From Diphasiastrum complanatum (taxonomy: Eukaryota > Streptophyta > Lycopodiopsida > Lycopodiales > Lycopodiaceae), in assembly GCA_029204225.1 (NCBI GenBank), contig CM055107.1:31645410-31709409 (forward strand): a stretch of 64,000 nt of DNA, given 5' to 3'. Below, piece after piece: positions 17,400 to 64,000 of the stretch (its first letter is position 1; each line of letters begins with the position of its first letter). Position numbers and translations under genes: made by a program. The notes below the pieces were generated by a model. It was given only the letters and a program-made list of their open reading frames with translations, did not search any database and was not told the DNA's origin.

Positions 17400-17665
17400 T
17401 TGTTCATTACAGCACTAATGACAAGTGACGAAGCAAAGGATACCTGGTACATCAACAGTGGAGCATCCAAGCACATGACTTCGAGGAAGGAGTGGTTTTC
17501 GAAATTCAAGGGGCTAGCCAGCGGAATGATAAAGCGAATAAGCAATGTGCAATATATTCCTGGTTTAGCCAAAAATTTACTATCAGTTGGGACGATGGCT
17601 GATCTACAACTTAAGGTTGAGTTTGATAGCAAAAATGTCTCGTCAAGGACATCAAGAATCACTAC
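17400..17665 (+). pseudogene. copia aspartic protease, catalytic Asp changed to Asn
   Basis: Reads DTWYINSGASKHMTSRKEWF and further on VQYIPGLAKNLLSVGTMADL, the copia protease pattern. The active-site triplet, normally DSG, is NSG here (about 17451-17459). This would abolish polyprotein cleavage. The ATG at 17400 is simply the first methionine after an upstream stop. Confidence 0.85.
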
Positions 17666-17668
17666 AAA

Positions 17669-18412
17669 GTGATTGCTACAGGAGCTAGAGTCAACGAGAA
17701 TCGACTCTACAAATTGAATGCGAGATTTTTTACTCAAGCTATGGTAAGCACTGTTGATAGTCGAAGTGACCTTTGGCATCAAAGGTTAGGTCATATTAGT
17801 GCTCAAAGCTTGCAAATCCTTAAAAGAGGTAATCTAGTTGTTGGATTGCTTGATATTGCTTTTGAAGGAAAAATTTGTGAGGGTTGCATTTTGGGAAAAC
17901 AACATAGAGAGAGATTTTCCAAAGGTGGAGCAAGAAGAGCCAATGGTATTCTTGATCTTGTTCATAGTGATCTGTGTGGACCAATACAAACTAGGTCCAT
18001 TAGTGACTGTTACTATTTCATCACGTTCATTGATGACTATAGTGGACATATCTGGATTTATTTCTTAAGCAAGAAATCAGATGCTTTTGCCAAGTTTAGA
18101 GACTTCAAGGCTCTAGTTGAAAAACAAACATGTTGTTATGTTAAGACTCTCAGATCAGATGGTGGTGGTGAGTATTTTTCAATAGAGTTTATAGATTTTT
18201 GCAAGGATCAGGGGATCAAGAGGCAAACTGCTGCACCCTATTCACCACAGCAGAATGGAGTTGCAGAACGGAAGAACAGATCCATTGTGGAGATGGCTAG
18301 GGAAATGCTTAAGAGCAAGGGTTTGCCAAATACTTTTTGGGCAAAAGCATGCAACACAGCTACTCATATCTTGAATTGGTGTCGAAGAGCCAATGGAAAA
18401 AGACAGGGTTAA
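17669..18412 (+). pseudogene. copia integrase, N-terminal and catalytic domains
   Basis: A clean frame of about 247 codons. It has the HHCC zinc-binding N-domain (WHQRLGHIS ... CEGCILGKQ) and the DDE core: HSDLCGP with the first aspartate, LRSDGGGEYFS with the second, and SPQQNGVAERKNRSIVEMA with the glutamate. It would insert element cDNA into chromosomes. The C-terminal chromatin-targeting part is missing: after WCRRANGK the sequence jumps to the start of RT, so an internal deletion spans the integrase/RT junction. Confidence 0.9.
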
Positions 18413-28646: not shown

Positions 28647-30660
28647 ATGTCTCGAGATTGTGCTGAATCTTCCATTCCTGCTCCTCCATGACACAAACAC
28701 AGGATCCCACGCATCGATGCGCCAAAGTACGATGGAGAATATGACCCAGTTAGATTTCTCCAAGACTGTGAAAAATAGCCTAATTTGGCAAGCCATGTAG
28801 AACATTGTAAATATTGTGTATAATTGGGTTCCACACATGTAAGGCCAAGATGCCACGTGGAAACCCACTCCTAATGTAGGTTAGGTCAAGTAAAGAGAGT
28901 TGGTCATGTCTATTTGGTGGTCAGCCCTACTTTATAGGACCTACACCTAAGTTTAAGGTGAAAATTTGACCAGCTAGCTACCTACCAAGCATAACTAGGA
29001 TCTAGGCTAGGGTTTCATTTTAGGGCAAGAAGAGTGAGTTAACTTCCTTATTACATGCTGGAAATCCACCTAACTTCAAGAAGGAAGTCGAATTTGCTAT
29101 GTATTCCAAGCTCCCATAGTGAAAAGATAGAATATTTTTGGAGCTCATTGGAAATCTCAAGCTACTCCACTATGTATATTGAGTTTTTGTGATACAAATG
29201 CAACCAAATCAATTTCTACTTGTTTTTCAGCTTGAAGGCCGTACTATAGCCTGTAGTACACACGTGTGGGCTCGGATTTCAATGTTCGTCAATGCTTTTG
29301 ATTGTTAATAGTTGTAAGTTGTCAAATTGCCAATCTAGATCAACTTTTTTGTGTCTAGTTTTTTGATAGATTGTTAAGCAAGCATCCAAACAATCTTGTG
29401 GATCTTTTGTAGATCCATGTATGGTCCTAAAGTACAGTACTTTCACACAAAGAATTTGATGATGCATGCTGCTTCTATGGAGATACCTCTGAAACTGAAA
29501 AGCTCAGACTATTCCCTATGGTGCTCTATGGAACTTCAAAAGAGTGGTATTTCAACCTTGAAGCTCCTAATTTTGCTTCTTGGACTACCCTCAAGGATGC
29601 TCTCATCAAGTGTTTCAAACCTTCTAATTTGACTCAGAGCCCATTCGTCCAAATCACACATATTAATATGTGTTGCGAAGAGTCTGTTAGGAGCTACATT
29701 GAGCGTTTTAAACATCTCAAGGTAGAATGTATTTACAAAAATATCACCGAAAGAATGGCCATCAAACTATTTCTAGTTGGACTTCCCAAAAATATCTGCC
29801 GAGAACTAAAACCAGTTGACCTTTATGATCAACTTAAGGACGTCATGACTGATGCCATCTGTGAAGGACGAGGGGTCCGATGAGGACTTTGATCACAGAG
29901 AAAAGAAGTCAAAAAATCCAGACATTCTTAATCAACAAAAGTTCGAAAATACCACCCAATCCTACAAACTTCTACAACAAATGGAAACTTGACAAAAAGC
30001 TCAACAAACCCATATGGATAAACTCGCTGATGATTTCCAAACCACCATGAAAAATTTTGATGATAAATCTTTCCCAGCAAGAGAAAATATATGGTGTTCT
30101 ATCTGTTCACAAAACCACACTACCAATGAATGTCCTCGACTGAAAAACCATTATCCAGTGGACCCTAGACCCATTATCCAGTGGACCCATTATCAATGAA
30201 TGTCCGCGACTGAAAAAGCATTATCCAGTGGACCCTAGACCCATTTATCGGCAATATCATGCTTACAATTCACAATAGTCCATGCCGCGACAAGGCATCT
30301 ATCAACCACGACCAACTGCACCCAATCAGTATCCACCACATCAACAATTCCTCGTCGATTATCAACCTGCTCCATAGCAAGCTGTCCACTATCTTGATCC
30401 CAATACCATCAATCAGACAACTTATTATGTGGAAGACACTACTCAACCAGGGTACACCACTGAGATAGTTGTTTATTATGCGTATGATCCTAATGCTCAA
30501 GTGCTTGACCCCAATGCCCAAACTTATGATCCTAACCAAGCTGTGCTTTCCACGCATCAACTTCCAGCAATACACAGATGTTTTATCTGCGTAGGTAAAC
30601 ATCCTAGTATTCGCTGTCCAGATAAACTTCGCTTTCTACCAGCTTGTGAAAATTGAGGCA
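28647..30660 (+). pseudogene. gypsy gag, interrupted by a solo copia LTR
   Basis: The gag opens at an ATG (28647) and, after one stop, reads RIDAPKYDGEYDPVRFLQDC. Interrupted at 28796-29447, it resumes with TSKEWYFNLEAPNFASWTTL, SYIERFKHLKVECIYKNITE and LFLVGLPKNICRELKPVDLY, the Retrotrans_gag pattern. Zinc knuckles follow: CSICSQNHTTNEC near 30093-30132 and CFICVGKHPSIRC near 30581-30620, then a third knuckle-like HHVKDC. About 70 bp around the first knuckle is tandemly duplicated (30124 and 30194). Stops and frameshifts make it non-functional. Confidence 0.85.
28796..29447 (+). repeat. solo copia LTR inserted in gypsy gag
   Basis: TGTAGAACATTG...ACTTTCA(CA) matches the reverse complement of 47609-48256 nearly end to end. 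Here no primer-binding site follows; gypsy gag coding resumes instead. It is therefore a solo LTR left by LTR-LTR recombination. A perfect 5-bp target duplication is not obvious. It contains CACGTG cores near 28853 and 29264. Confidence 0.8.
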
Positions 30661-31089
30661 TTGAACACCATGTGAAGGATTGTCCTTGCCGATCTAAACC
30701 AGTTGCTCCTGTCTGTTCTGTGCAAGTCGCAGTCGAAACTCATCCAGCATGGGTATTGACTCGTGCACAAGCCCAATGCCAAGCCCCTACCGTCGCACCC
30801 AGCAAAACCCAGCAGCATAATGTACCTCCAAGTGAAGGTTCGACACCCATTGTCTATCCTCACCCATCCGAAAAAATTAGGTTGCATCACTAGTATTGAC
30901 AACAATTTCCAAATGCAGACCAACACTCTTCCACCTCCCATAAAGTACCTCACATGTCTTTTGAGAACAAGACTTTTGAAGGCACTGAAGTCTGGGGGGA
31001 TCTATTACAAGCTATTGTGACTCTCCCTTTCCACGTTCTTTGGAAACATGCGGGTAAGTGAAAACAAAGAATCCAATCCACCGAAACCA

Positions 31090-31560
31090 CCACCCTTGAT
31101 GAGCTACCCGAAATGCCATTACACCACACAAATCCGCTCAGTGAAAGGGGCAATATCAAGATTTCAGCTACTCATCGCCAATCTCGCGAAGCCTTCGCTG
31201 TACTAGATGGTGGCTCAGGTGCCAACATCATTTCCACATCCCTCATGTTAGAATGGAATCTGAGAGACAAACTCACCAAACCCACTTGTCAGCTCATGAT
31301 GGCTGATCAAAGTGTGGTCCGCCGACCTACCGATTTCCTCCCACAAGTTCTGATCAAACTAGGAGGCCTGAAATTTTTAGTCGTACTCGAAATCCCTAGT
31401 AATTCATCTTCCTACGACTTACTACTTGGTTGTCCATGGCTCACTAGTCGTTCACGACTGGAGCAAAGGACGAGTCACCTTTGGTAATAGAGACAGCTCT
31501 GTTATCATTGATTCATTTGGCAAACTTAAACCTGCACGCTTTCACGACGAGTAATCATCT
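31090..31560 (+). pseudogene. gypsy aspartic protease
   Basis: Reads FAVLDGGSGANIISTSLMLE, with the D-G/S-G catalytic loop, then PTCQLMMADQSVV and LEIPSNSSSYDLLLGCPWL, the usual ILLG(R/C)PWL end of gypsy retropepsins. The frame is open for about 124 codons (31113-31487), then shifts. It would process the gag-pol polyprotein. Confidence 0.8.
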
Positions 31561-32159
31561 ACTACTAATTCAGTGTTTGATCCATATCAGTCCACTCAAG
31601 AAAAAGGTCACTATGTTGAGTCTACTGATATCATAAACTAAAGTCACAGTTTGGCTACCATTGATTGTGTGAATGCTGATTATTGTGCTCAACATCAGGA
31701 TGATTGTACCTATACTCCTCTGGCCGATAACGAACACTTTCCTGAACTAGACACACCTATCATTAATATCGATTTTATTGATATTCTTCCACACAATGAT
31801 GAGTTGTTAAATGTTGTCTGACTACCTACTGATGAATCAAAAAATTTATTTGTAGATGACGACAATGTCTTACAAATTTAGAATTGCCCAAAAGATTTCG
31901 ACATTTCTGATATTCAGATCCTCAACTACATGGAGGCACTTCCACTCAAAGCCTTCCTGCAATATTTATCCAAAGTGGAACCAGTTGCCAAAGTTACAGT
32001 CAAAAAAGCTGATACCAAGCTATGCCGTGTCAAACGACAAAATTATCCATGGGACCTCTATGAGGAGGAAATAATTTTTCAAATCGACGATAAGATCCTC
32101 CATGATGTGCCACCACTTTCTTATCCGCACCCTCACGTCCTCCGAAGCCACAACCTCGT

Positions 32160-33410
32160 GTCCATACCATGAAAGAAAAGATGAAGAAACCCCTTCAAAT
32201 CCAGTCGCCTGGAGACCTTATCACTATTAGGGAAGTTCCTGATATCGCTCATATGCCAATCCCCGAACCTCCAATTACCACAAGCTCAACGTGAGCCAAA
32301 TGGTAAATTACCCTACGAAGGCCCTGCTCGATCACTCTATCTTTGAGAGAGCCCAATGAAAGTAACAAATACATTGTCCACATTGGGACTCATCTCAATC
32401 GGGAACAATACATAAGGCTTGAGAAGATTTTGCACAAATATCGACATGTCTTTGCTTGGTCCTATAAAGACATGAAAGGAGTCTCACCCCAAGTAGTTGT
32501 GCATCGTATTCCTCTTAAACCAGATGTGAGACCAACTGCTAGTCGTCCCTACAAATGTAATCCGATCTACAAGGCCAAAATCAAAGAAGAATTACAATGC
32601 TTGTTAGATGCGAGATTCATCTACGAAATTGAACCTACTGAGTGGGTCTCCCCAATCGTCATCATTCCTAAGAAAAATGAAAAACTCCGCATCTGTGTCA
32701 ACTTTAAAAAATTTAATGCCATCACAGAACGTGATCATTTTCCATTATCTTTTGGAGAATCCATCTTAGAAAATCTAGTAGGAGATGAGGCCTACTCTTT
32801 CTTAGATGGCTTTAGCGGATACAATATGATTCAAATTTTGAAGAAGATCAACATAAAGCCGCTATTGCCACAGAATGGAGAACCTTTTGTTGGAAAGTCA
32901 TGCCTTTTGGTCTATGTAATGCTCCTACCACTTTCTAGTGTGTTATGCAAGCTACCTTTTCTCAGTAGATGAGAGCCTTACCCTAGAGGATTACTTGGAC
33001 AATTTAGGTGCACATTTAGAAGAAACACGTCAGTCTGTGCTTGAGAAATATTTTATCCAATGTCAACAGTTCGACATCTCCTTGAACCCTGAAAAATGCC
33101 AGATCTGGGTAACACATGATATTGTGTTAGGACATATCATTTCAAAAAACGGCATCGCAACTGACCTGGACAAGGTCCTGATCATTCAAAATTTGTCTGA
33201 ACCACGCACCATCCGCAAAGGTTATTCTTTCCTAGGCCACACCAACTAGTATCGGTGCTTTATTCTTGATTTCACATATAAAACACGATTAATTTGTAAA
33301 GGGGTATTGTTCCCAAATGGACCGATGAACAACGAGTCGCATTCATTCAATTAAAGGAAGCCCTCACCAATGCACTTATCCTCCGGGCTCCTGTTAGTGA
33401 TAAAGATATT
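32160..33410 (+). pseudogene. gypsy reverse transcriptase and start of RNase H, truncated
   Basis: Open from about 32343: YRHVFAWSYKDMKGVSPQVV, HRIPLKPDVRPTASRPYKCN, EWVSPIVIIPKKNEKLRICV and [14 protein letters not shown] are core RT motifs. A frameshift follows near 32860. The catalytic F/YxDD box appears as YLDN (near 32990), with the second aspartate lost. SLNPEKCQI, VLGHIISKNGIATD and LGHT then follow. A further shift gives the early RNase H segment WTDEQRVAFIQLKEALTNAL, which stops near 33410, where the CACTA region begins. Confidence 0.85.
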
Positions 33411-33671
33411 TGTGGATCTTGTTAAATTTGTGTGTATATATCAATTTTAACTATATATTTTGACAAGTGTATTTTGTCAATATCATTAACATTCTTGTTA
33501 AAAAATGTAGATAAAATTTAATCGTTCATTAGCGAATATGTCTTCTACTGAAGAAATGTCTCTAAACAGGTATATTTATTAAATGTATAGTAGATATTAT
33601 ATACTTAACATTTGGATTTGCAGCATTGTGTGTTGAATATAACTTTTTGTTTTTTTTCTACGATTGTTTAA

Positions 33672-34086
33672 AGCACGACGCCTCCACAAGATAGCAAAAG
33701 TTTAAAGAAGATGCAATATTATTACAAAATGAAATCACAAAAAAGAGCACAAATGCTTGAGCAAAGACTTAGTGGAAGATCATTGTCATCAAGTTCTGGT
33801 GCCCAGCCTCGACCTAAATCGCACGTACTATATAATTATTTGTTTAAAAGTTAGGACTATATTTATACACATATAAATTAGCTTGTATCATTAAGCTAAT
33901 CATTTTTGTAATTGTAAAATGAAATTAGTATCAACAGAGGTACAACGAAAAGATATATTGCAAGTGCAAACAATGCAAAGGATTGAAAATTCAAGAAAGA
34001 CGAATAGTGGCGCAACATCTGTGGAAGTTTGGAAAGCACATTGAGGAGCCCGATGTGGATTTGGAGGTACATTTTGACAATTTAGT
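33672..34086 (+). CDS. CACTA transposase, N-terminal exons (transposase-associated domain)
   Basis: Exon from about 33675 (after tttaaag) to 33823 reads a lysine/serine-rich segment (QDSKSLKKMQYYYKMKSQKR). It is followed by an intron and an exon from about 33937 to 34066 encoding IYCKCKQCKGLKIQERRIVA and HLWKFGKHIEEPDVD. A CxCxxC cluster followed by V..HL...G is the pattern of the plant transposase-associated domain (Pfam PF13963) found ahead of TNP2. Donor gtac and acceptor ag sites fit. It could be a separate product or the N-terminus of the main transposase. Confidence 0.55.
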
Positions 34087-34348
34087 ACTGTTCTTATCAT
34101 ACACATATTTATAATTTTTTTGAAAAAAATAAAACTAATGCTTGTGTAATGTTTCACTCTTGAAAAATAATACATTGATGTCAATGTCTTATAACACATC
34201 GATTGACAATCTTATCAACAAGATAAGAAATATCAATTTTGGATCATCTTTGGCATTGGACGAAGATCTTGTTGATGATCATAATGATGTCACTAGTCAT
34301 TACACACCTCATGATGTGGAAGTTATGCATCTTTCCATTTCGCACGTC

Positions 34349-34612
34349 ACTCACTCCACCACACCTCACATAGATCTTTCCATGGAATCTATTCATCCCA
34401 CGATATCACCACACATAGATTCTATTCATCCCATTACACCTCACATGGATTCTATCCATCCCACAACACCTCACATAAATTCTACTATGGATTCTATTCA
34501 TTCCACAATGTCACCACACATTGATTCTATCTATCTCATGACACCTCACATCGATTCTATCCATCCCACGACACCTCACATCGATTCTATCCATCCACAT
34601 CACCTCACATAC
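34349..34612 (+). repeat. coding minisatellite with a 30-bp unit (TPHIDSIHPT)
   Basis: About eight copies of a unit close to cctcacatcgattctatcca plus ten bases, translated as a ten-residue TPHIDSIHPT repeat. Units vary slightly (PHMDSIHPT, PHIDSIYLM). The frame stays open from 34142 to 34621, and because the unit is 30 bp, copy-number change would keep the frame. Confidence 0.9.
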
Positions 34613-34759
34613 CTTGTGTAGAATCTCCTCTTCTTCCTATTCCATCTAGATTTACTCCATTAAAAAAAAAAAACACGACTTGGACGCATTTTGACAAGAT
34701 TTGAAAATGAACAACCAAATTTAAGTACTATTGACTTATCCAAGAATGTTTTAAATTAA

Positions 34760-35410
34760 TTGACTGAGTCTCCCCTTCCTCCCTACCTAGAAGCATTGGT
34801 TAAGCCCTTTGATAGAAAGAAATATTCATGTTGGCCTGATAGAGTTCCACTACCATTATGTGGAACAACATTTTCATATTGGAGTCATATGTACATGATC
34901 AAGCCAAGTGAGCACTTTCCTAATGCGGGATTGGGTTTATTTTCTTTGACTAGCATTGATGTCCCCTTGAATAGTGTTGTCACATTAATGCCTTATACAG
35001 GACCTCAATACAATTGGGGTGATTGGCATGCTCTATGTCGTCACCAATGGAGAATGCAGGTTCATAGCTTGAATGCCAATGCTTGTTCTTTGGAAGAGCG
35101 ACGTGTGCAAGGAGAGAATGTTTTGAAATCACATCGTATGGACATTGATGGGTGTCCATAAAAATATGGCAATATTGCTGCATATATAAATAGTTCCATT
35201 GGGCACCCTTCATTAACTAATTGTGATTTCGAGGAATGTACCAATGGAAAGGAAGAATACTTTTCTAGGAAATCAAAAAGTACATACGTAATGGTATGTG
35301 CGATAAGGCCTATTAAATGTGCGATAAGGCCCATCAAATATAGCTTCAATTGCCCTCTTCCAAGATGTGTACAAAAGGCTTTGAGCCAAACTCAAGCATG
35401 TACCTTGTGA
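34760..35410 (+). pseudogene. SET-domain-like coding segment inside the CACTA element
   Basis: The frame reads NAGLGLFSLTSIDVPLNSVV then TLMPYTGPQYNW, matching the SET N-motif (GxGLF...I..G..V..Y.G). After one in-frame stop (35159-35161) it gives KYGNIAAYINSSIGHPSLTN, like the SET-N/HxC region (GNIARFINHS), and then STYVMVCAIRPIK, like the strand before the GEEL.xDY motif. That last motif is missing where a 20-bp unit, tgtgcgataaggcc, is duplicated (about 35299 and 35320). SET domains are lysine methyltransferases, and the cofactor-binding NH pair is degenerate here (NS). It could be a captured host gene piece or a transposon-encoded accessory domain. Assignment is by motif reading only. Confidence 0.55.
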
Positions 35411-35579
35411 ATATCAAAATACATTTTATCTATTTAGTGAGAGCAAGTTATATTGAATGTGTAATAAATTATTATTTTTAATATTTCATATTGCATGCCT
35501 TAATTTAAGATATGGTGTTTGATTTGCATGTCTTAATTTTAGTTTTAATTTTCATGAGTGACAATCTTATATGTTAATT

Positions 35580-36079
35580 GATAAATATGTTAATTTGTTT
35601 CCCATGTTTGAAGGACTATGAATTGTCATCTAGCTCTAGTGACGATGACAACAGTCACTCCATATCCAAAACAAGATTGGCATACGATGGGCCGCACATA
35701 AATCAACTATCACGTCGTGAGCGGATGGGATTGAGAGCCATGATGAAAATAGATGAACAACAACGTGCCAAAGCAAATTAGCCTCGATCTTCTTCTTCTT
35801 CTTCTTCAGAATCAAGATCAAGTGCTGAAAATGATTTTTGCATTCAAGATGAAGTTTAAATCATGAACAACTTGATAAATAACGTCTATGAGCATCATGA
35901 TATGGAAGAACGCACTGAACATGATAGCGAATCATTTATTAGTGCCGAGGAAACAAATTGAGAGAAGAATCAAACACATCATTATATCTTGGAGACATCT
36001 CGTTTGGCCGCTTCGATGCTTATATTGAACCTCCAAGCAAAATATAAATGGAGTGATACAAGTGTTACATCCTTATTTG
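35580..36079 (+). pseudogene. CACTA transposase, linker exon
   Basis: An acidic/serine-rich segment (ELSSSSSDDDNSHS) is followed by QLSRRERMGLRAMMK, two stops, a SRSSAENDF stretch, and finally AKYKWSDTSVTSLFG. The last part flows across an intron (36080-36199) into the LLRKLLPEGN start of the TNP2 core. The linker is degraded although both flanking domains are well kept. Confidence 0.6.
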
Positions 36080-36199
36080 GGTAAATAAGATTGAGATTTT
36101 TTTTAAAGAATTTAATAGATGTGTTGTTCAAGTCAAATATTTTAGTTGGCTAAATGATCTTTTATTTTATATTATGAAAATTCATTTCATTATGTACAG

Positions 36200-39100
36200 G
36201 TTATTGCGCAAACTACTCCCAGAAGGAAACACTATGTTAGAGACAAGAGGTGAGGCACGAAAAATGTTGAGTGCAATGGGAATGGACTATACATTGCATC
36301 ATGCTTGTCCAAAAGATTGCATCTTTTATCGTGGTGAGTATCGAGGGTTAAAAGCTTGTCCTATATGCGATACTCCTCGATATCGAGATGACTTACAAGG
36401 GACCACTATCCCATGCAAGCTGTTACGACACTTTCCAATAATTTCACGATTGCAACGATTGTTTCGTTGCAAGTCTCTTGCAGAACTTGTGAATTGGCAT
36501 GCTAGTCATCGTTCTTCAGATGAGATCATGAGAGTACCCTCAGACTCTCCTGCATGGAAACACATTGACAAAGAATATCCATGTTTCGCAAGTGAAACAA
36601 GAAATATAAGATTTGGACTTGCAATAGACGGAGTTAACCCCTTTGGAAAAATGTCAAGCACGTGGTCTACTTGGCCAGTGGTGTTGGTCAACTATAACAT
36701 TCCACCTTGGCTAAACATAAAAAACGGACATCTCATGCTAGCACTTCTCATTCCTGAAAAACATAAAGTAAAAAATATGGATATCTACTTTGCACCATTG
36801 ATTGAGGAACTAGAACTACTACGGAAGGGAGTCCAAGCATATGACATCTCACGTCCACTTCAAGACAAAACATTTTTGTTGCGTGCGATGTTAATGTGGA
36901 CTATGCATGACTATCCAGGATTGGGCGATTGTTCAGGTGACTATAAAATGAAATCATTTGTAATGTTTGTATATTTATTTTTTATGCGTGCAATATTTAT
37001 AATTCTATTTATAAGACCAATTGGATTTGATTCTTTTAGGTTTTACAACTTCTGGATATCACGCGTGTCTCATTTGTGGATCAAATATTGATGCTCGCCA
37101 CTCACGTCATTTAAACAAAGTTGTGTATGAAAATCATCGCAAGTACTTGCATGATGAAAATTGTCCATTTAGAAATGCTCATAGAAGAGGCTTTGGAGGA
37201 AGATCAGAAACAAGAATGCCTCCAAAGAGAATGTCCGTGGCAGATTGGTACAAATTTTGGATTGAATCCGAGACTAAGCCAATCAATGGTATGAAAAGAC
37301 TATCCATCTTTCATTGTTTACCGTATTGGAATAACCTTTTGATCAATCACTTGCTTGATCCTATGCACATATTCAAAAATGTGGGTGAATCAATATGGAA
37401 ACACTTGGTGGGCGACAAAGACAGTATTTCTGCTAGGCATGATCTACAAGAATCAAAAACAAAAAAAGAGTATTGGCCAAAATTATGTATTGATGAAAAT
37501 ACCTATAATATTCCAAGAGCCCCTTGGATTAGAGTATAAGTATGTACGGTCAGTCATTTGCGAGATGAGAACACCAACGGGTTTTGCTCATTCACTACGA
37601 ACATCATTCATAGCTGAAGGAAATCTCCATGGTCTAAAATCTCACGATTGGTTGAAGATGGTCGAGTACATATTTCCAATGTGCATTCGTGGCTGTCTAA
37701 CTGATCAACTTCGTGATGCCATTTACAAATTAGCATCCGTTGTTAGGTACTTAATTTTTTTTTGTTTACATCGATATCTTATGAAATTTCGTGTTTTTTT
37801 TTTTTAATACAAGTTTGATTAAATAATATGAACGTACTAAAATCTAGTTATACTACAAAGATGATGTAGATGGATGTGTGGTAAGGAGATTCGTGAGATA
37901 GACATGCAAACAAAGCAAGAAGATATGGTGGAGGCTGTATGTATGCTTGAAAGGGATTTTTCAACTTCTATCCTAGACATACAGGTGCATCTGCTTGTGC
38001 ACTTGGTCCAAGAAGTTGGTATTGTCGGTCCTGTGCACTCAAGGTATAATACACTTGAATTTGATTTTAGTAATTTCAATAAATGTAGTGTGATTCTTTC
38101 AAATTATAAATAACAGAATGTTCTCATTGATGTGTTAAAATTTTCTGTAGATGGATGTTTTTCTTGGAGAGATTTATGAAAGTGTTGAAAGATATTGTGC
38201 GTCAGAAGGCAAGGCCAGAGGGAAGCATGTCAGAGGGAAGTTAGTGCAAGAATCTCTATTTTATGTTACCGAAGTTTTGTTTCAAATAGATCCATCTGCT
38301 CCACGACTATGGCATGATGAGGAAAACAATGAGGTGAAAGGTGAAAAACCTCAAGGTATGGGTAGTCTTAAAAAAATGACACCTAGTTTGAGAGAAAAAA
38401 TTCAACCTTCATGCTATATAATTCAGGAGTAATGGATAAATGGTTGGAACTATATGAAGAAGAAAAAAAAAAAGGTATTGATTAGAAATCGACACCGACG
38501 CAATAGGCGTAGAGGTCAAGCTATACCTTCACATGATCTTGAGCCATTGCCCAACCAATGCACTATAGACTGGATGGTTGATACACTCCAAGAAGCAAGA
38601 TCAAAGGGACAATTCATATCTGATAGTATCGAAAGTATAGTGCAATGTGGGCATATGCTCGTCATCATCGCATTGAATCAATTGATATGAAACGACGAAC
38701 TTATGATTGTGGTGTGATGGCATCCTTCCATCAAGAAAGTCGGAGTAGTGCTCGAGATCAAAGTCCAATTTCTGGACAGCTTGAGTATGTAGGAACCATA
38801 TATGAGGTGTGTTTGGTGAAATGGGTAAATATTTGTTGTTTGACGTGAAATGGTTCAAAATCAACTATAGGGGATCAAATGCAACTGTAAAAAACGATCG
38901 TAGTGGATTTTTTGCTATCGATTCAACCAAGACATTAAGCATGGACTTTTCAAACACATTGGTGTTGCCTCGTCATTGTGAACAGGTGTGCATGAATTTC
39001 ACATTTTTTTTCTTTTTGTCAATTGTGATCAATGTTATATTAATCATCTACACTACTTTTTCACTACATATATTTATTGTGAATTAAAATGTGAGCATAA

Positions 39101-39455
39101 CAAATATCTATTCCTAACATTGCTAAATGTGCAGGTATTTTTTCATCCAGATCGACTAAACAAAGATTGGTGGTATGTTGTTCAAATTAAGCCACGCTCA
39201 AGACATGTATTTGAAAATGCATATGTTGAGAATGAAATGGAAGATCTAAATTTGGACAACACAAGTATATCTAATGAAGATGTACATATACCTTCGAGTT
39301 TTATAAGTATTGAGAACCCGAGACTTGATTCTCATGATTCCGATAACTCAGATGATGAAGAGGACAACAATGATTCTTTGCATGAGAACAATATTGAGAG
39401 AGGTTTTGATTTCGATAGTGATGATGAAAATCATCTTAGCGGAGATGAGTTGTAA
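36200..39455 (+). CDS. CACTA transposase, TNP2 core with DUF4218 and DUF4216 domains (spliced)
   Basis: Exon 36200-36936 gives the Transposase_21 core: RKLLPEGNTMLETRGEARKM, HACPKDCIFYRGEY, CPICDTPRYR, then FGLAIDGVNPFGKMSSTWST and WPVVLVNYNIPPWL. The GDCSG|F junction joins 37040 (GYHACLICGSNID, LPYWNNLLINHLLDPMHIFK). After a 1-nt shift near 37530 comes DUF4218 (TPTGFAHSLRTSFIAEGNLH), then exons near 37869-38042 (LERDFSTSILDIQVHLLVHL) and 38151 onwards (GEIYESVERYC). DUF4216 (FDVKWFKINYRGSNATVKND) runs into a last exon from 39135 (VFFHPDRLNKDWWYVVQI) with an acidic tail. It would bind and cut element ends in the nucleus. A few frame breaks suggest it is recently dead. Confidence 0.8.
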
Positions 39456-40219
39456 GATGTATTGGCTGATGAATTTGAATCTTGCGATGATGAATAAAGT
39501 TTGTAGATGTCACAAATAATTTTGTCATAAAATGATCCATTGTGGTCAATACATATTGTTTTCAAATTAAAATTATTATATTTTTCTACGATGTTGCATT
39601 TCGAAAGTTTCATTTCAAACGCATCTTGCAATCACTTAGAATTAGAAAAATTTATCAATATTAATAGATGTGTGAACTAATTAAAAGATATATGTGTTGA
39701 TTATTTATATATAATTAAAAAACATCTTCTTTGAGATAATAATACACTTTGCCACAATATTGTTTGACTATTCATTGATCTTTGCAAACACACAAAGGTG
39801 TATAACATTGTAATTTTTTTATCAACTAATTAGCTTAACAAGCTACCACACGGCTCTCAAATGTAAGGTACTTAGCATCCTTTCACATGCATACTAAGCT
39901 CATGCTTATATTTTTACCCATCAATACCATATTGAAAAAATTGTCAAATTTTGATTAAAATTTTTTCTCAATATAGAAACACATCATAATGTCTATAAAC
40001 ACATAAGATAACATGTAATATTCAACTGATAGTAACTTTAATTCGTTAGAGCATAATAATTTGAGATAATGATCATTTAATTTTTAGTCCACATTTTATT
40101 ATAAGTATACACCTATTCAAAATATTAAAAAAAATCTTATTTGCTTTTAAATTAATCATAAAGTTATTTTTTATTAACTTATTATTCATAATAGATAAAA
40201 AAAAATTACAACAAACTAA
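39456..40219. other. AT-rich 3' flank within the CACTA element
   Basis: No gene seen; follows the transposase stop and leads into the subterminal repeat zone. Confidence 0.4.
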
Positions 40220-40705
40220 TTTTGTCATGCGTGGCACTGCCATGCGTGGCAAATTTCCAAAACAACATTTTTCTAAGTATTGTGTTTTAATATTGCCACG
40301 CGTGGCAATAAAAAAAGCCATCGCTTTGGAATTTTCTCTGGAGATTTGTCACGCGTGGCACTGCCACGCATGGCAAATCAAAAAAATTTATGTCACATGA
40401 GAATTGGTTAAATAACAACCGTACGTGGCACTTCCACGCATGGATGTGCCACGCCGACATATTTTGGCACTCAAATTTTAAGTTTTAGTTTTAAAAAAAT
40501 TTGCGTGGCACTGCCACGTGTGGCAGTGTCACGCAGAATTAATTTTATTTTTTTTGTCGGACCTCTCCTCTAGTCTGGATTTCACCGGCAGGGTCCTCGA
40601 AAAAGTTTTAGCGTGAATATGCCACGCGTGGCAGTGTCACGCATAAGAAAAATGTCAAAATTTTGGCTAAGTATCGAGTTCGCGTGGCAGCGTCGCATGG
40701 CAAAA
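40220..40705. repeat. subterminal repeat zone with TGCCACGCGTGGCA palindromes
   Basis: About a dozen full or half copies of the self-complementary tgccacgcgtggca occur at roughly 40227, 40241, 40294, 40348, 40361, 40422, 40433, 40449, 40503, 40513, 40524, 40619, 40632, 40682 and 40692, often as head-to-head pairs. Arrays of short motifs near the ends are transposase binding sites in CACTA elements; the role here is inferred from position. No comparable array was seen at the left end. Confidence 0.75.
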
Positions 40706-40714
40706 CACACATAT

Positions 40715-41669
40715 ATGTAGTTGTGTAAGGAACATCCATATCATTACTTTGAGATAGATTACCTGAGGTTGAAGCTTGGTTTTTGACGCAATCACGTGCA
40801 AGGTGACCCTCGCCATTGCACTTGAAGCACAGGTTCTTCTTACGAGCTTCAGTTTTATCATTGCCACCTTGACGGTTCTTAAAATTTTTCTTGCTTTTCT
40901 TGAGATTGTTGGAATTGGGATGTGTTTCACTAAGAGCTTCCTTATCCTTCCTCTTAAATTGAGAACCTTTTTTCTGCTCATTAGACTATTGACCCCTAGG
41001 TGGCTTAGGTGTGTCTTCAAAGTATTTTGCAACCCTAATAGCATCTTCTAGGGTTTTTAGATGGTTCCTACAAACATCCACTTGATAATCTTTTGATAAC
41101 CCATCAATGAACATTAACATTTGTACCTTAGACGGAATGTCACTATAAAGTGGATTCAGGTACTCATGAAAATCTTGAATAAATTGCTCTAGACCTTTAT
41201 TCATGGTTAGATGACTCAACTTTTGGAAGTGTTCATAGTCACCTAAAAGTGGTAGAAAATAATCCCTAAAAAGCTTGTGAAAATCGTCCCATGTACAAGG
41301 TTGATTGCCCTTTGCAACTAAGTCATCCCACCAAACTAAGGCTCTTCCTTCAAGGAACATGGTGACAATGGATAACTTTTCAGATTCATGGAATTGGTTC
41401 ATGGCAAAGTATTTGTTCCAAACATTTAGCCAAGAACTTACCACTTGTAGGTTCCTATCTTTCTTCTCCCCCTTAAACACTTTTACGGGAGGTGGAACTA
41501 CATGCTTCTTCTGGTTGGCTAACCTAGACTCTAAGTCTTGGTCTCTTTGATTAGTTTCAAGAAGCTGCTTATTAGTGGCTTGAATTTGTTTGTATAAAAG
41601 TTCAAGAGCTTGTGCCACATTGGATGAGTTTGATAGATCAAATGTTGGGTTTTCATTGGTTTGATCCAT
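40715..41669 (-). pseudogene. gypsy gag on the minus strand, cut by the CACTA element
   Basis: A clean minus-strand frame (41669 to 40986) reads a Retrotrans_gag capsid: LASWL-like SSWLNVWNKYF, MFLEGRALVWWDDLVAKGNQ, TWDDFHKLFRDYFLPL and EQFIQDFHEYLNPLYS. After a stop near 40986 another frame gives a basic linker and a CCHC knuckle, CFKCNGEGHLARDC, at about 40832-40791. Coding stops near 40725 at the CACTA edge, so protease and pol are absent. The ATG at 41669 is a plausible natural start. Confidence 0.85.
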
Positions 41670-47594: not shown

Positions 47595-47608
47595 GGCTCT
47601 GATATCAT
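47595..47608 (-). promoter_or_regulatory. copia primer-binding site
   Basis: The minus strand reads TGATATCAGAGCC directly after the LTR end, one mismatch from the usual TGGTATCAGAGC. Confidence 0.75.
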
Positions 47609-48256
47609 GTGAAAGTACTGTACTTTAGGACCATAAATGGATCTACAAAATATCCACAAGAGTGATTGGATGCTTGCTAACAACCCATCAAAAAACTAGA
47701 CACAAAAAAGTTGATCTAGATTGGCAACTTGACAATCAACAAGCAAGAACAATCAATAGCATTGATCAATCATTTAATCTGACTTGGTACATGTGTACTA
47801 TAGGATGTAGTATGGCCTTCAAGTAGAGAATCAAGTACAAAGTGATTTGTTTGCATTTGGATCACAAAAACTCAATGTACAATGTGGAGTAGCTCTAGAT
47901 TGCCAATGAGCTCCAAAGATAATCTATCTTCTCACTGTGGGAGCTTGGAATACATAGCAAATGTGACTTCCTTTGTGAAGTTAGGTGGATTTCTAGCATG
48001 TAATAAGGAAGTTAACTTGATTGTCTTTCCCTAATTTTCAACCCTAGCCGAATTCCTAGAGTCATGCCTAGTAGGTGACTAGTTGGTCAATTTTTCACCT
48101 TAAACTTGGGTGTAGGTCCTATGATCTAGGAATCACTACCAAAATGACATGACCAACCTTTAGACTTGTTCTAACCTACACTAGTGTGTATTCCCATGTG
48201 GCTCCATGGCCTCACATGTGTGGGACCCACTTATGTACATTTTACATTATTCTACG
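47609..48256 (-). repeat. copia 5' LTR, same family as the solo LTR at 28.8 kb
   Basis: The reverse complement aligns with 28796-29447 along almost its whole length, beginning (C/T)GTAGAA and ending ...GTACTTTCACA before the primer-binding site. It interrupts or abuts the gypsy integrase relic that follows at 48.28 kb. CACGTG-type cores are present. Confidence 0.8.
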
Positions 48257-48279
48257 TGGTTTTTGATCAAGCTAGATTT

Positions 48280-60985: not shown

Positions 60986-61115
60986 CCAAGGGAAAAATGT
61001 TTTCTAGTTTAAAAACGGTTGAACTGTCATAACTTTCTTACTATTGCTCAGATTGAGATGGTCCAAAAAGTAAAAGTGCTCCATTCTTATGTAGACTCCA
61101 TTGGTATAATCAAAG

Positions 61116-61689
61116 TTAGTTTTTATCTTATATAAAATGAGTATATATAAAGCCTATATATTTGATAGCATACCATGTGCTATGAAATTTTAGAAATTAT
61201 TTGTCAATAAAACTCGCAAAACTCGCAAAGAATTTACTCATAGATTGTCAAAACCCCATCAAGACTAGCTTCCAATTCTAGCGTCTGCTTGACAATTTTA
61301 GTGATTCCAAGCAAGAACAATCAAACAATGATGACCCACAACTTCAAACATGTGAAGTACTATTACTATACAGCCTGATAACAGAGAATAAGTTTACTTA
61401 TGTTAGTTTTTATCTAATATAAAATGAGTATATATAAAGCCTATATATATGATAGCATACCATGTGCTATGAAATTTTATAAATTATTTGTCAATAAAAC
61501 TCGCAAAACTCGCAAAGAATTTACTCATAGATTGTCAAAACCCCATCAAGACTAGCTTCCAATTCTAGCGTCTGCTTGACAATTTTAGTGATTCCAAGCA
61601 AGAACAATCAAACAATGATGACCCACAGCTTCAAACATGTGAAGTACTATTACTATACGGCCTGATAACAGAGAATAAGTTTACTTATG
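61116..61689. repeat. 287-bp tandem direct repeat
   Basis: 61116-61402 and 61403-61689 are nearly identical, with only a few differences (for example tttgata/tatgata and acaactt/acagctt). They include tactcata, gcgtctgcttgacaatttt and the gatagcataccatgtgcta palindrome. The repeat lies directly upstream of the copia LTR and may belong to its 5' end. Confidence 0.92.
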
Positions 61690-62791: not shown

Positions 62792-64000
62792 ATGGCAACC
62801 TCAATTGGAGTCATGTTGGAAGCCAATGATAGGCTTACCTCAAGTAACTATTCATTATGGAAAGTGAGAGGATGGAGTCACTTCTTGAGATGAATGATGT
62901 TTTGGATATTGTTGTAGGTTTGGAGGAGAGACCAGCAACACAACAAGATCAATTGAGGTATGACAAGAGGGCCAAGAAGGCTCTACACATGATAAAGATG
63001 AATGCTACCAATGAACTTCTCAAGGAAGTTGGTAAGTGCACATCATCTTTGGAAGCTTGGAATTCATTGAAGAAGCTTTATGAATCCAAGTCTACTTCTA
63101 GAGTGTTGACTCTAAGAAGGCAAATCTTTTCTTGTTTGCAAAAGAATGAAGAAAGTCCAAGTACTTTTGTTTTGAGAATGAAAGCATTGAATGATGAGTT
63201 AGCTTGCATAGATGAAAGCATTAAGGAAGGAGAATATATTCAAGTGATTCTTAATGGCTTGTTGGATGCTCATGCTAACATTGTTCAAAGTATTGCTATT
63301 CAAAAGACTTTGCCAAGTGTGATGGATCTTCAAGAGATCTTGATCAATGAGGAATATAGGCTTCAAGCAAGAGGTGGATCTACATCGACACTTCAAGAGG
63401 ATGCTATGTTCACAAAGGGCAAATTCAAGGGCAAAACCAAAAGCAAGTGGTCTAAAGGGCAAGATCAAGTGGATGCTTATTCAAGTAGCAAAAATAAGGA
63501 TAGATCAAAGCTCAAGTGCTTCTATTGTGGCATCAAAGGACACTTTGCAAGTGAGTGCTACAAGAAGAAGAGAGATCAAGGAGACAAGCAAGGTAATCTT
63601 ACTCTTGATAAGGATGGTTTGGATGTGCAAGATGCAAATGATGATGCTTTTGTGATGTCTTCATGTATGCTTGCTAATGATGGAGATCTAGATCCTTGGT
63701 GGATTGATAGTGGAGCAAGTTCACACATGACCTTTCACAAAGAGTACTTCACTTCTTTGTTGGCATATGGAGATGACAAGAGGGTGATCTACACGGCCAA
63801 TGATGGTGAGTGTGCAATCAAAGGGATTGGCACAATTCTTATTTCTCTCTCTACAAATAGGAATGTTCATTTGGAGGATGTCTTGTTTATTCCATCTATT
63901 ACCAAGAATTTGCTTAGTGTGAGTCAAATGCTAAATAAGGGCCTCATGGTGGAGTTTGATGGAGATGCTTGTTTGATCAAAAGGAAGGATGTCTTGATTG
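62792..64000 (+). CDS. copia gag-protease, open to the window end (one frameshift near its start)
   Basis: The natural start is the ATG at 62792 (ATSIGVMLEANDRLTSSNYS). A 2-bp excess near 62866-62871 shifts the frame, and from the ATG at 62872 it stays open for 376 codons to the last base. Domains in order: UBN2-type capsid (AKKALHMIKMNATNELLKEV, SLEAWNSLKKLYE, LTLRRQIFSCLQ); a basic linker; a perfect CCHC knuckle, CFYCGIKGHFASEC, at about 63520-63561; a short linker; then copia protease, DPWWIDSGASSHMTF, with the DSG active site intact at about 63705-63713 and FIPSITKNLLSVSQML. Gag builds the particle; the protease cuts the polyprotein. Integrase and RT should lie beyond the window. It is the best-preserved retroelement here and may be young. 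Confidence 0.88.

Follow-up and report, generated by a model that had tools for sequence, protein, structure and literature searches.

The window, which is the whole stretch of 64,000 nucleotides analysed here (G000:C16:31645410-31709409, from the 1.74 Gb genome of Diphasiastrum complanatum), carries a decayed CACTA-type transposon on the + strand at 33.4-40.7 kb, as judged from its domains and from comparison with other copies. Homology to these copies starts at position 33394 and a common 3' end lies at 40725, giving a recognizable extent of 33394-40725. The 5' part of the element is cut at a Ty3-like fragment (31062-33394, assigned by frame reading) that runs to the start of the homology among CACTA copies; Pfam finds nothing at 0.001 in the part of this fragment at 32307-32969. 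Copia-type pieces are present at 1548-2411, 17630-18409 and 62848-63999 (RVT_2, E-value: 2.8e-75; GAG-pre-integrase and integrase core; gag with Pol_BBD). The window also contains two inverted copies with 83% identity over 658 bp (28793-29447 and 47608-48259) and a 288 bp tandem duplication with 98% identity (61115-61402 and 61402-61689). No Rfam family or tRNA was found in scans of the window.

The coding order of the element, all on the + strand, is predicted to be a transposase-associated (TAD-like) exon, a repeat spacer, a SET domain, a Ser/Asp-rich piece, the TNP2 transposase, DUF4218 and an acidic tail. An open frame piece 5' of the TAD-like exon (33672-33851) has a weak match in elements of the third identity tier described below (tier C; E-values: 0.014 to 2e-4). 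The TAD-like exon (33929-34111) matches PF13963 under the cut-off (23.7 bits against 27.7, E-value: 5.5e-5). It is followed by an open spacer frame (34139-34618) with direct repeats, in which a TPHIDSIHP-type tandem repeat occupies 34356-34610; the unit count and wording of this repeat differ among copies. In copies such as L009, the spacer frame and the SET segment form one continuous frame. The SET-like segment of the window (34760-35407) is a single frame broken by one TAA (35159-35161). Where other copies have the sequence GEELF..Y (SET motif IV), comparison with intact copies identifies a 21-bp tandem duplication (35296-35337), at which motif IV is lost. The Ser/Asp-rich piece (35578-35778) is an open frame that has a match of 36-51% identity in 6/6 tier C loci. 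The TNP2 transposase is in two parts (36057-37088 and 37015-37536; PF02992, E-values: 2.8e-50 and 3.4e-10). DUF4218 follows at 37865-38110 (PF13960, E-value: 1.9e-11; 44.2 bits against a cut-off of 27), then a weak DUF4216-like match at 38806-39084 (PF13952, E-value: 0.044; 14.8 bits against a cut-off of 30.6) and an open frame with an acidic tail at 38982-39452, which is matched in other copies.

Subterminal-like direct and inverted GCGTGGCA repeats, to which no strand is assigned, are present on the 3' side of the element (40221-40714) within the region common to other copies. The 3' terminus GTAGTTGTG (40717-40725, + strand) is found in six copies, the window copy and five others with an identical end (L009, L014, L025, L027 and L028). 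This end came from comparing copies; a direct search for CACTA/TAGTG ends within the window gave none. A 5' terminus, or a CAC...GTG partner for the 3' end, was detected neither in the window nor after the addition of 5 kb to four copies; a 3-bp target-site duplication, the reading of which requires the 5' end, was likewise not found.

A first-pass annotation had proposed that the sequence flanked by the N-terminal domain and the TNP2 core of the transposase reads like a SET methyltransferase domain. The window copy alone is weak evidence for this, and its relatives decide the question. Against the curated Pfam SET cut-off (PF00856; 22.4 bits), the read-through segment scores 13.8, 14.0 and 14.7 bits at three lengths (E-values: 0.082, 0.07 and 0.042). 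The match spans the stop, and the two halves of the segment scanned separately have no Pfam SET match. Alignment of the window copy to six canonical SET domains with hhalign gives a probability of 5.1% over 17 columns (E-value: 0.0076), compared with E-values of 0.46 and 0.13 for two TNP2 pieces used as controls. In a control scan of 148 window proteins (the SET core and 147 other window frames, with the two SET half-frames excluded), 125 families were matched at E<=1, so the E-value of the window copy is not rare as a match to any family. A frame of 216 codons with one stop at most was found in 981/126706 sliding window frames and in 1/4000 Markov sequences. With motif patterns drawn up after the sequence was known, matches in shuffled sequences were rare: motifs I and II under strict patterns in 125/200000 cases, motif III in 10/200000 and AxRxI in 1353/200000. 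The segment has no match in an NCBIfam scan and no relative among the viral and prokaryote contigs scanned, and a sequence search of solved structures, using the segment and also a 10-copy alignment profile, found no SET match. With its stop codon and the loss of motif IV, the window copy is a pseudogene, a decayed example of its kind, a point that the first-pass annotation did not make.

The segment is multicopy, with at least 150 matches in the genome to its first 133 residues (150 scored of 2064 candidates). Some rows from different contigs have equal scores, which points to allelic or duplicated sequence, and so 150 is not a copy number. Identity to these 133 residues is 75-93% among the matches listed, the window itself apart. 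Twenty copies of 9.9 kb were read for their neighbourhood: TNP2 lies downstream on the same strand in 17/20 (the exceptions being L017, L019 and L022), and a TAD-like exon precedes the segment, also on that strand, in 11/20. The GEELF..Y motif is present in copies such as L009, L012, L013, L014 and L016. All six stop-free copies tested have this motif and are over the Pfam SET cut-off (36.9, 33.4, 33.0, 28.8, 34.5 and 33.6 bits). L056 (28.6 bits) and L079 (37.2 bits) also exceed the cut-off, of which a 76-aa piece of L053 falls short at 16.8 bits. An alignment of 10 copies compared with the six canonical SET domains by hhalign is colinear over motifs I-IV (E-value: 7.6e-5, probability 62%), the four motifs occurring in the same order in these 10 relatives. 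The SET assignment and its place in the element are thus borne out by the relatives, with the qualification that stop-free copies pass the Pfam cut-off and the window copy does not. Intactness is similarly divided: stop-free copies exist, but the window copy and many others carry stops.

Identity of TNP2 to the window copy falls into tiers of roughly 84-100% (tier A), 77-83% (tier B) and 70-75% (tier C) among the matches listed (150 scored of 6548 candidates), with a few rows falling between tiers. In tier C, SET is upstream of TNP2 in 6/6 loci fetched, and SET identity is 61-75% in matches of more than 100 residues. The SET copies of L054, L055 and L057 are incomplete or broken. Many tier B matches to both SET and TNP2 are found within about 1.7 Mb at G000:C1:48.6-50.3 Mb, as if locally amplified.

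Selection was assessed from pairwise comparison of gap-free SET segments (36 copies, 630 pairs); alignment gaps excluded 5/41 sequences (L027, L039, L042, L046 and the window copy). The median dN/dS of SET is 0.94 at dS <0.1 (279 pairs), 0.71 at dS 0.1-0.2 (36 pairs), 0.236 at dS 0.3-0.5 (257 pairs) and 0.225 at dS >0.5 (58 pairs), where the pairs share history and are not independent. When the tiers were compared using 22/40 copies, chosen as open over most of the segment, the between-tier medians were 0.225 for A-B (80 pairs), 0.171 for A-C (40 pairs) and 0.229 for B-C (32 pairs), and the within-tier medians were 0.728 for A-A (45 pairs), 1.019 for B-B (28 pairs) and 1.355 for C-C (6 pairs). 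Against the tier B copy L025, dN/dS is 0.205 both for SET (dS 0.470, 17 pairs) and for TNP2 (dS 0.496, 12 pairs); within tier A, TNP2 has a dN/dS of 0.853 (65 pairs). SET is therefore under purifying selection between subfamilies at a strength like that of TNP2, with near-neutral decay among young copies. Constraint between lineages together with near-neutral change among young copies is what one would predict if movement of the elements requires the protein and each copy decays after its insertion. Most of the copies read are decayed, given that within-tier dN/dS is close to 1 and that stops occur in many of them.

The motif III asparagine and the motif IV tyrosine of SET domains have roles in SAM binding and catalysis. 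In the element, this asparagine is kept in 37/37 readable copies and the tyrosine in 28/30. The histidine of the motif III sequence NHS is replaced by serine (NSS) in all 37 readable copies, which the first-pass annotation had not recorded. Loss of this histidine may mean loss of catalysis; as the asparagine and tyrosine are kept and the histidine is not, the domain may also act by binding alone, with no catalysis. The SET frame ends at the same place, within a few codons, in tiers A, B and C. Given this common end, SET may be made as a separate product or may be joined to TNP2 by splicing.

A genome search with PF00856, in which 150 of 875 candidates were scored, listed at least 146 matches, every one of them above the cut-off. 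The top matches are canonical SET domains, and many of the others listed share the range of the element SET (profile position 36-46 to 104 or 105); all three such stretches fetched for inspection (L076-L078) are of the element type. Two further stretches, L074 (C17:35282091-35282456) and L075 (C22:580966-581328), share 31-34% identity with the element SETs (tblastn E-values: 8e-18 to 5e-14) and also carry NSS. The region around L074 (L079) encodes a TAD-like exon under the cut-off (23.9 bits), a SET domain that covers the full Pfam profile (E-value: 4.1e-9) and TNP2 (E-values: 9.3e-31 and 9.1e-11). The order of these three features is the same as in the window family at a SET identity of approximately 34%, and hhalign relates the L079 SET to those of the window family with an E-value of 1.3e-14. 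L074, L075 and L079 represent another SET lineage, deeply diverged from the first, that shares the NSS motif. With L074 as query, at least 150 matches in several identity tiers are found (150 scored of 1241 candidates). One short match to the L074 SET (G000:C17:45544464-45544550; 97% over 29 residues) is listed within a 3368-aa open frame, unusual for such sequence.

Comparison of 36 SET places from the L074 search with 16 TNP2 places by coordinates gave four same-strand pairs within 1.5 kb and two more at 7.3 kb, in lists that were hand-picked, partly on pairs already noticed, so that these counts are not a rate. A CACTA family lacking SET was sought as a contrast at two TNP2 loci and none was established. 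At C22:21920966, the 2.5 kb upstream of TNP2 is Copia-like in the frames read and has no SET match, and an element-type SET is listed approximately 13 kb upstream on the same strand. At C11:45896430, no SET was found within 2.5 kb upstream, and one further up is possible.

We consider it likely that the segment at 34760-35407 is a SET domain, now decayed, that belongs to a DNA transposon of the CACTA/EnSpm type, with the role proposed below taken as part of that explanation. That the SET likeness instead arose by chance in an unrelated transposon spacer is hardly conceivable. Such a reading could draw on the sub-threshold score of the window copy, on the number of window frames that give chance matches of this size and on the 6/5000 shuffles that scored at least as well as the window core with a six-SET profile (3985 were reported by the program). 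It is refuted at the sequence level by the stop-free copies, six out of six of which are over the cut-off, and by L079, with its full SET profile and its hhalign relationship to the element SETs. Recent transduplication, in which a fragment of a host SET gene would be carried as a functionless passenger as in Pack-CACTA, is very improbable. CACTA elements are known carriers of gene fragments (PMC8978399, PMC2528002), and the broken state of the window copy would fit such an origin, but SET keeps its place across the three identity tiers of TNP2 and also in the lineage whose SET is only about 34% identical, and it is constrained like TNP2. Host-type SET genes are also distant: the 15 further canonical SET stretches that were fetched reach a tblastn E-value of 0.014 at best against the element SETs. 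The segment, which is multicopy, is not identical to a host gene among these. Recent gene capture was rejected on the depth of the association and on selection, and the captured-fragment reading offered by the first-pass annotation fails at least for a recent event. Its other suggestion, an element-encoded factor, was upheld by the multicopy state of the segment, its fixed position, after the TAD-like exon and before TNP2, and a constraint equal to that of the transposase. Position across subfamilies and selection together argue that SET is very probably a standing, selected component of a diverse CACTA clade, and an old one.

What such a component would do is less certain. SET may be kept as a structural or binding module of the transposition machinery (contacting SAM, a histone tail or a protein) that has no methyltransferase activity, which we regard as a serious possibility while still doubting it. 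Replacement of NHS by NSS in every readable copy, and in L074 and L075, is consistent with such a module, as is the co-conservation of SET with TNP2. Retention of the motif III asparagine and of the motif IV tyrosine in nearly all readable copies speaks against it, to the extent that the roles known for these residues apply. A methylation or anti-silencing role is put forward tentatively and falls short of being probable. A protein-methylation role that aids escape from silencing would be slightly likelier than a purely structural one, which stays open because motif III is altered.

The association of SET with a transposase has some precedent. SETMAR is a host gene in which SET was joined to a mariner transposase by one fusion; like the element described here, it combines SET with a transposase, but it was formed once and is not a mobile multicopy component. 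SET histone methyltransferase genes are reported in the HarbingerS and MuDR families of Phytophthora (PMC12730594, citing Kojima and Jurka, Repbase Reports). These are also DNA transposons with SET besides the transposase, but they belong to other superfamilies and an oomycete host, and are likened here by the description given in that source rather than by SET sequence. Gained domains and captured gene fragments are described for CACTA elements in PMC8978399. Jozin of Chenopodium (TAD, Transposase_21, DUF4218 and DUF4216) shares the order TAD, TNP2, DUF4218 with the window element, and some such Jozin-type CACTA/EnSpm elements gain domains, but those named there are Transposase_24 and Peptidase_C48; the terms "SET domain" and "methyltransferase" are absent from the main text of that paper. 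Transduplication is described in grapevine (PMC2528002). No report of a SET domain in CACTA elements was found among titles and the starts of abstracts, with subscription journals and Repbase outside this scope. Element-encoded counters to silencing are known, according to PMC12730594, from Vandal elements and from captured TET enzymes. The fungal DNA transposons bearing TET/JBP, EnSpm among them, similarly encode a chromatin or DNA modification enzyme that is thought to counter silencing, but this enzyme is a dioxygenase acting on methylcytosine and the hosts are fungi (PMC12730594).

The proposed model for the element SET is as follows. The SET domain would bind SAM and would methylate a lysine residue of histones or of a protein from the element or the host. 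This methylation would let the element stay transcribed, or transpose, within chromatin that is otherwise silenced. The stop-free copies make such a methylation role testable.

Among the 146 SET matches that the genome search listed, many share the range of the element, and counts of plant SET genes can thus be inflated by transposons. If the model is correct, a selected SET domain in a plant CACTA clade would give these elements a direct handle on histone or protein methylation. A large and old CACTA clade may then, as we cautiously suggest, encode a SET-type chromatin factor of its own, a regular component of the transposition machinery, with an NSS-type SET subfamily that would make up a large share of the SET matches in the genome and act as a writer or reader against silencing.
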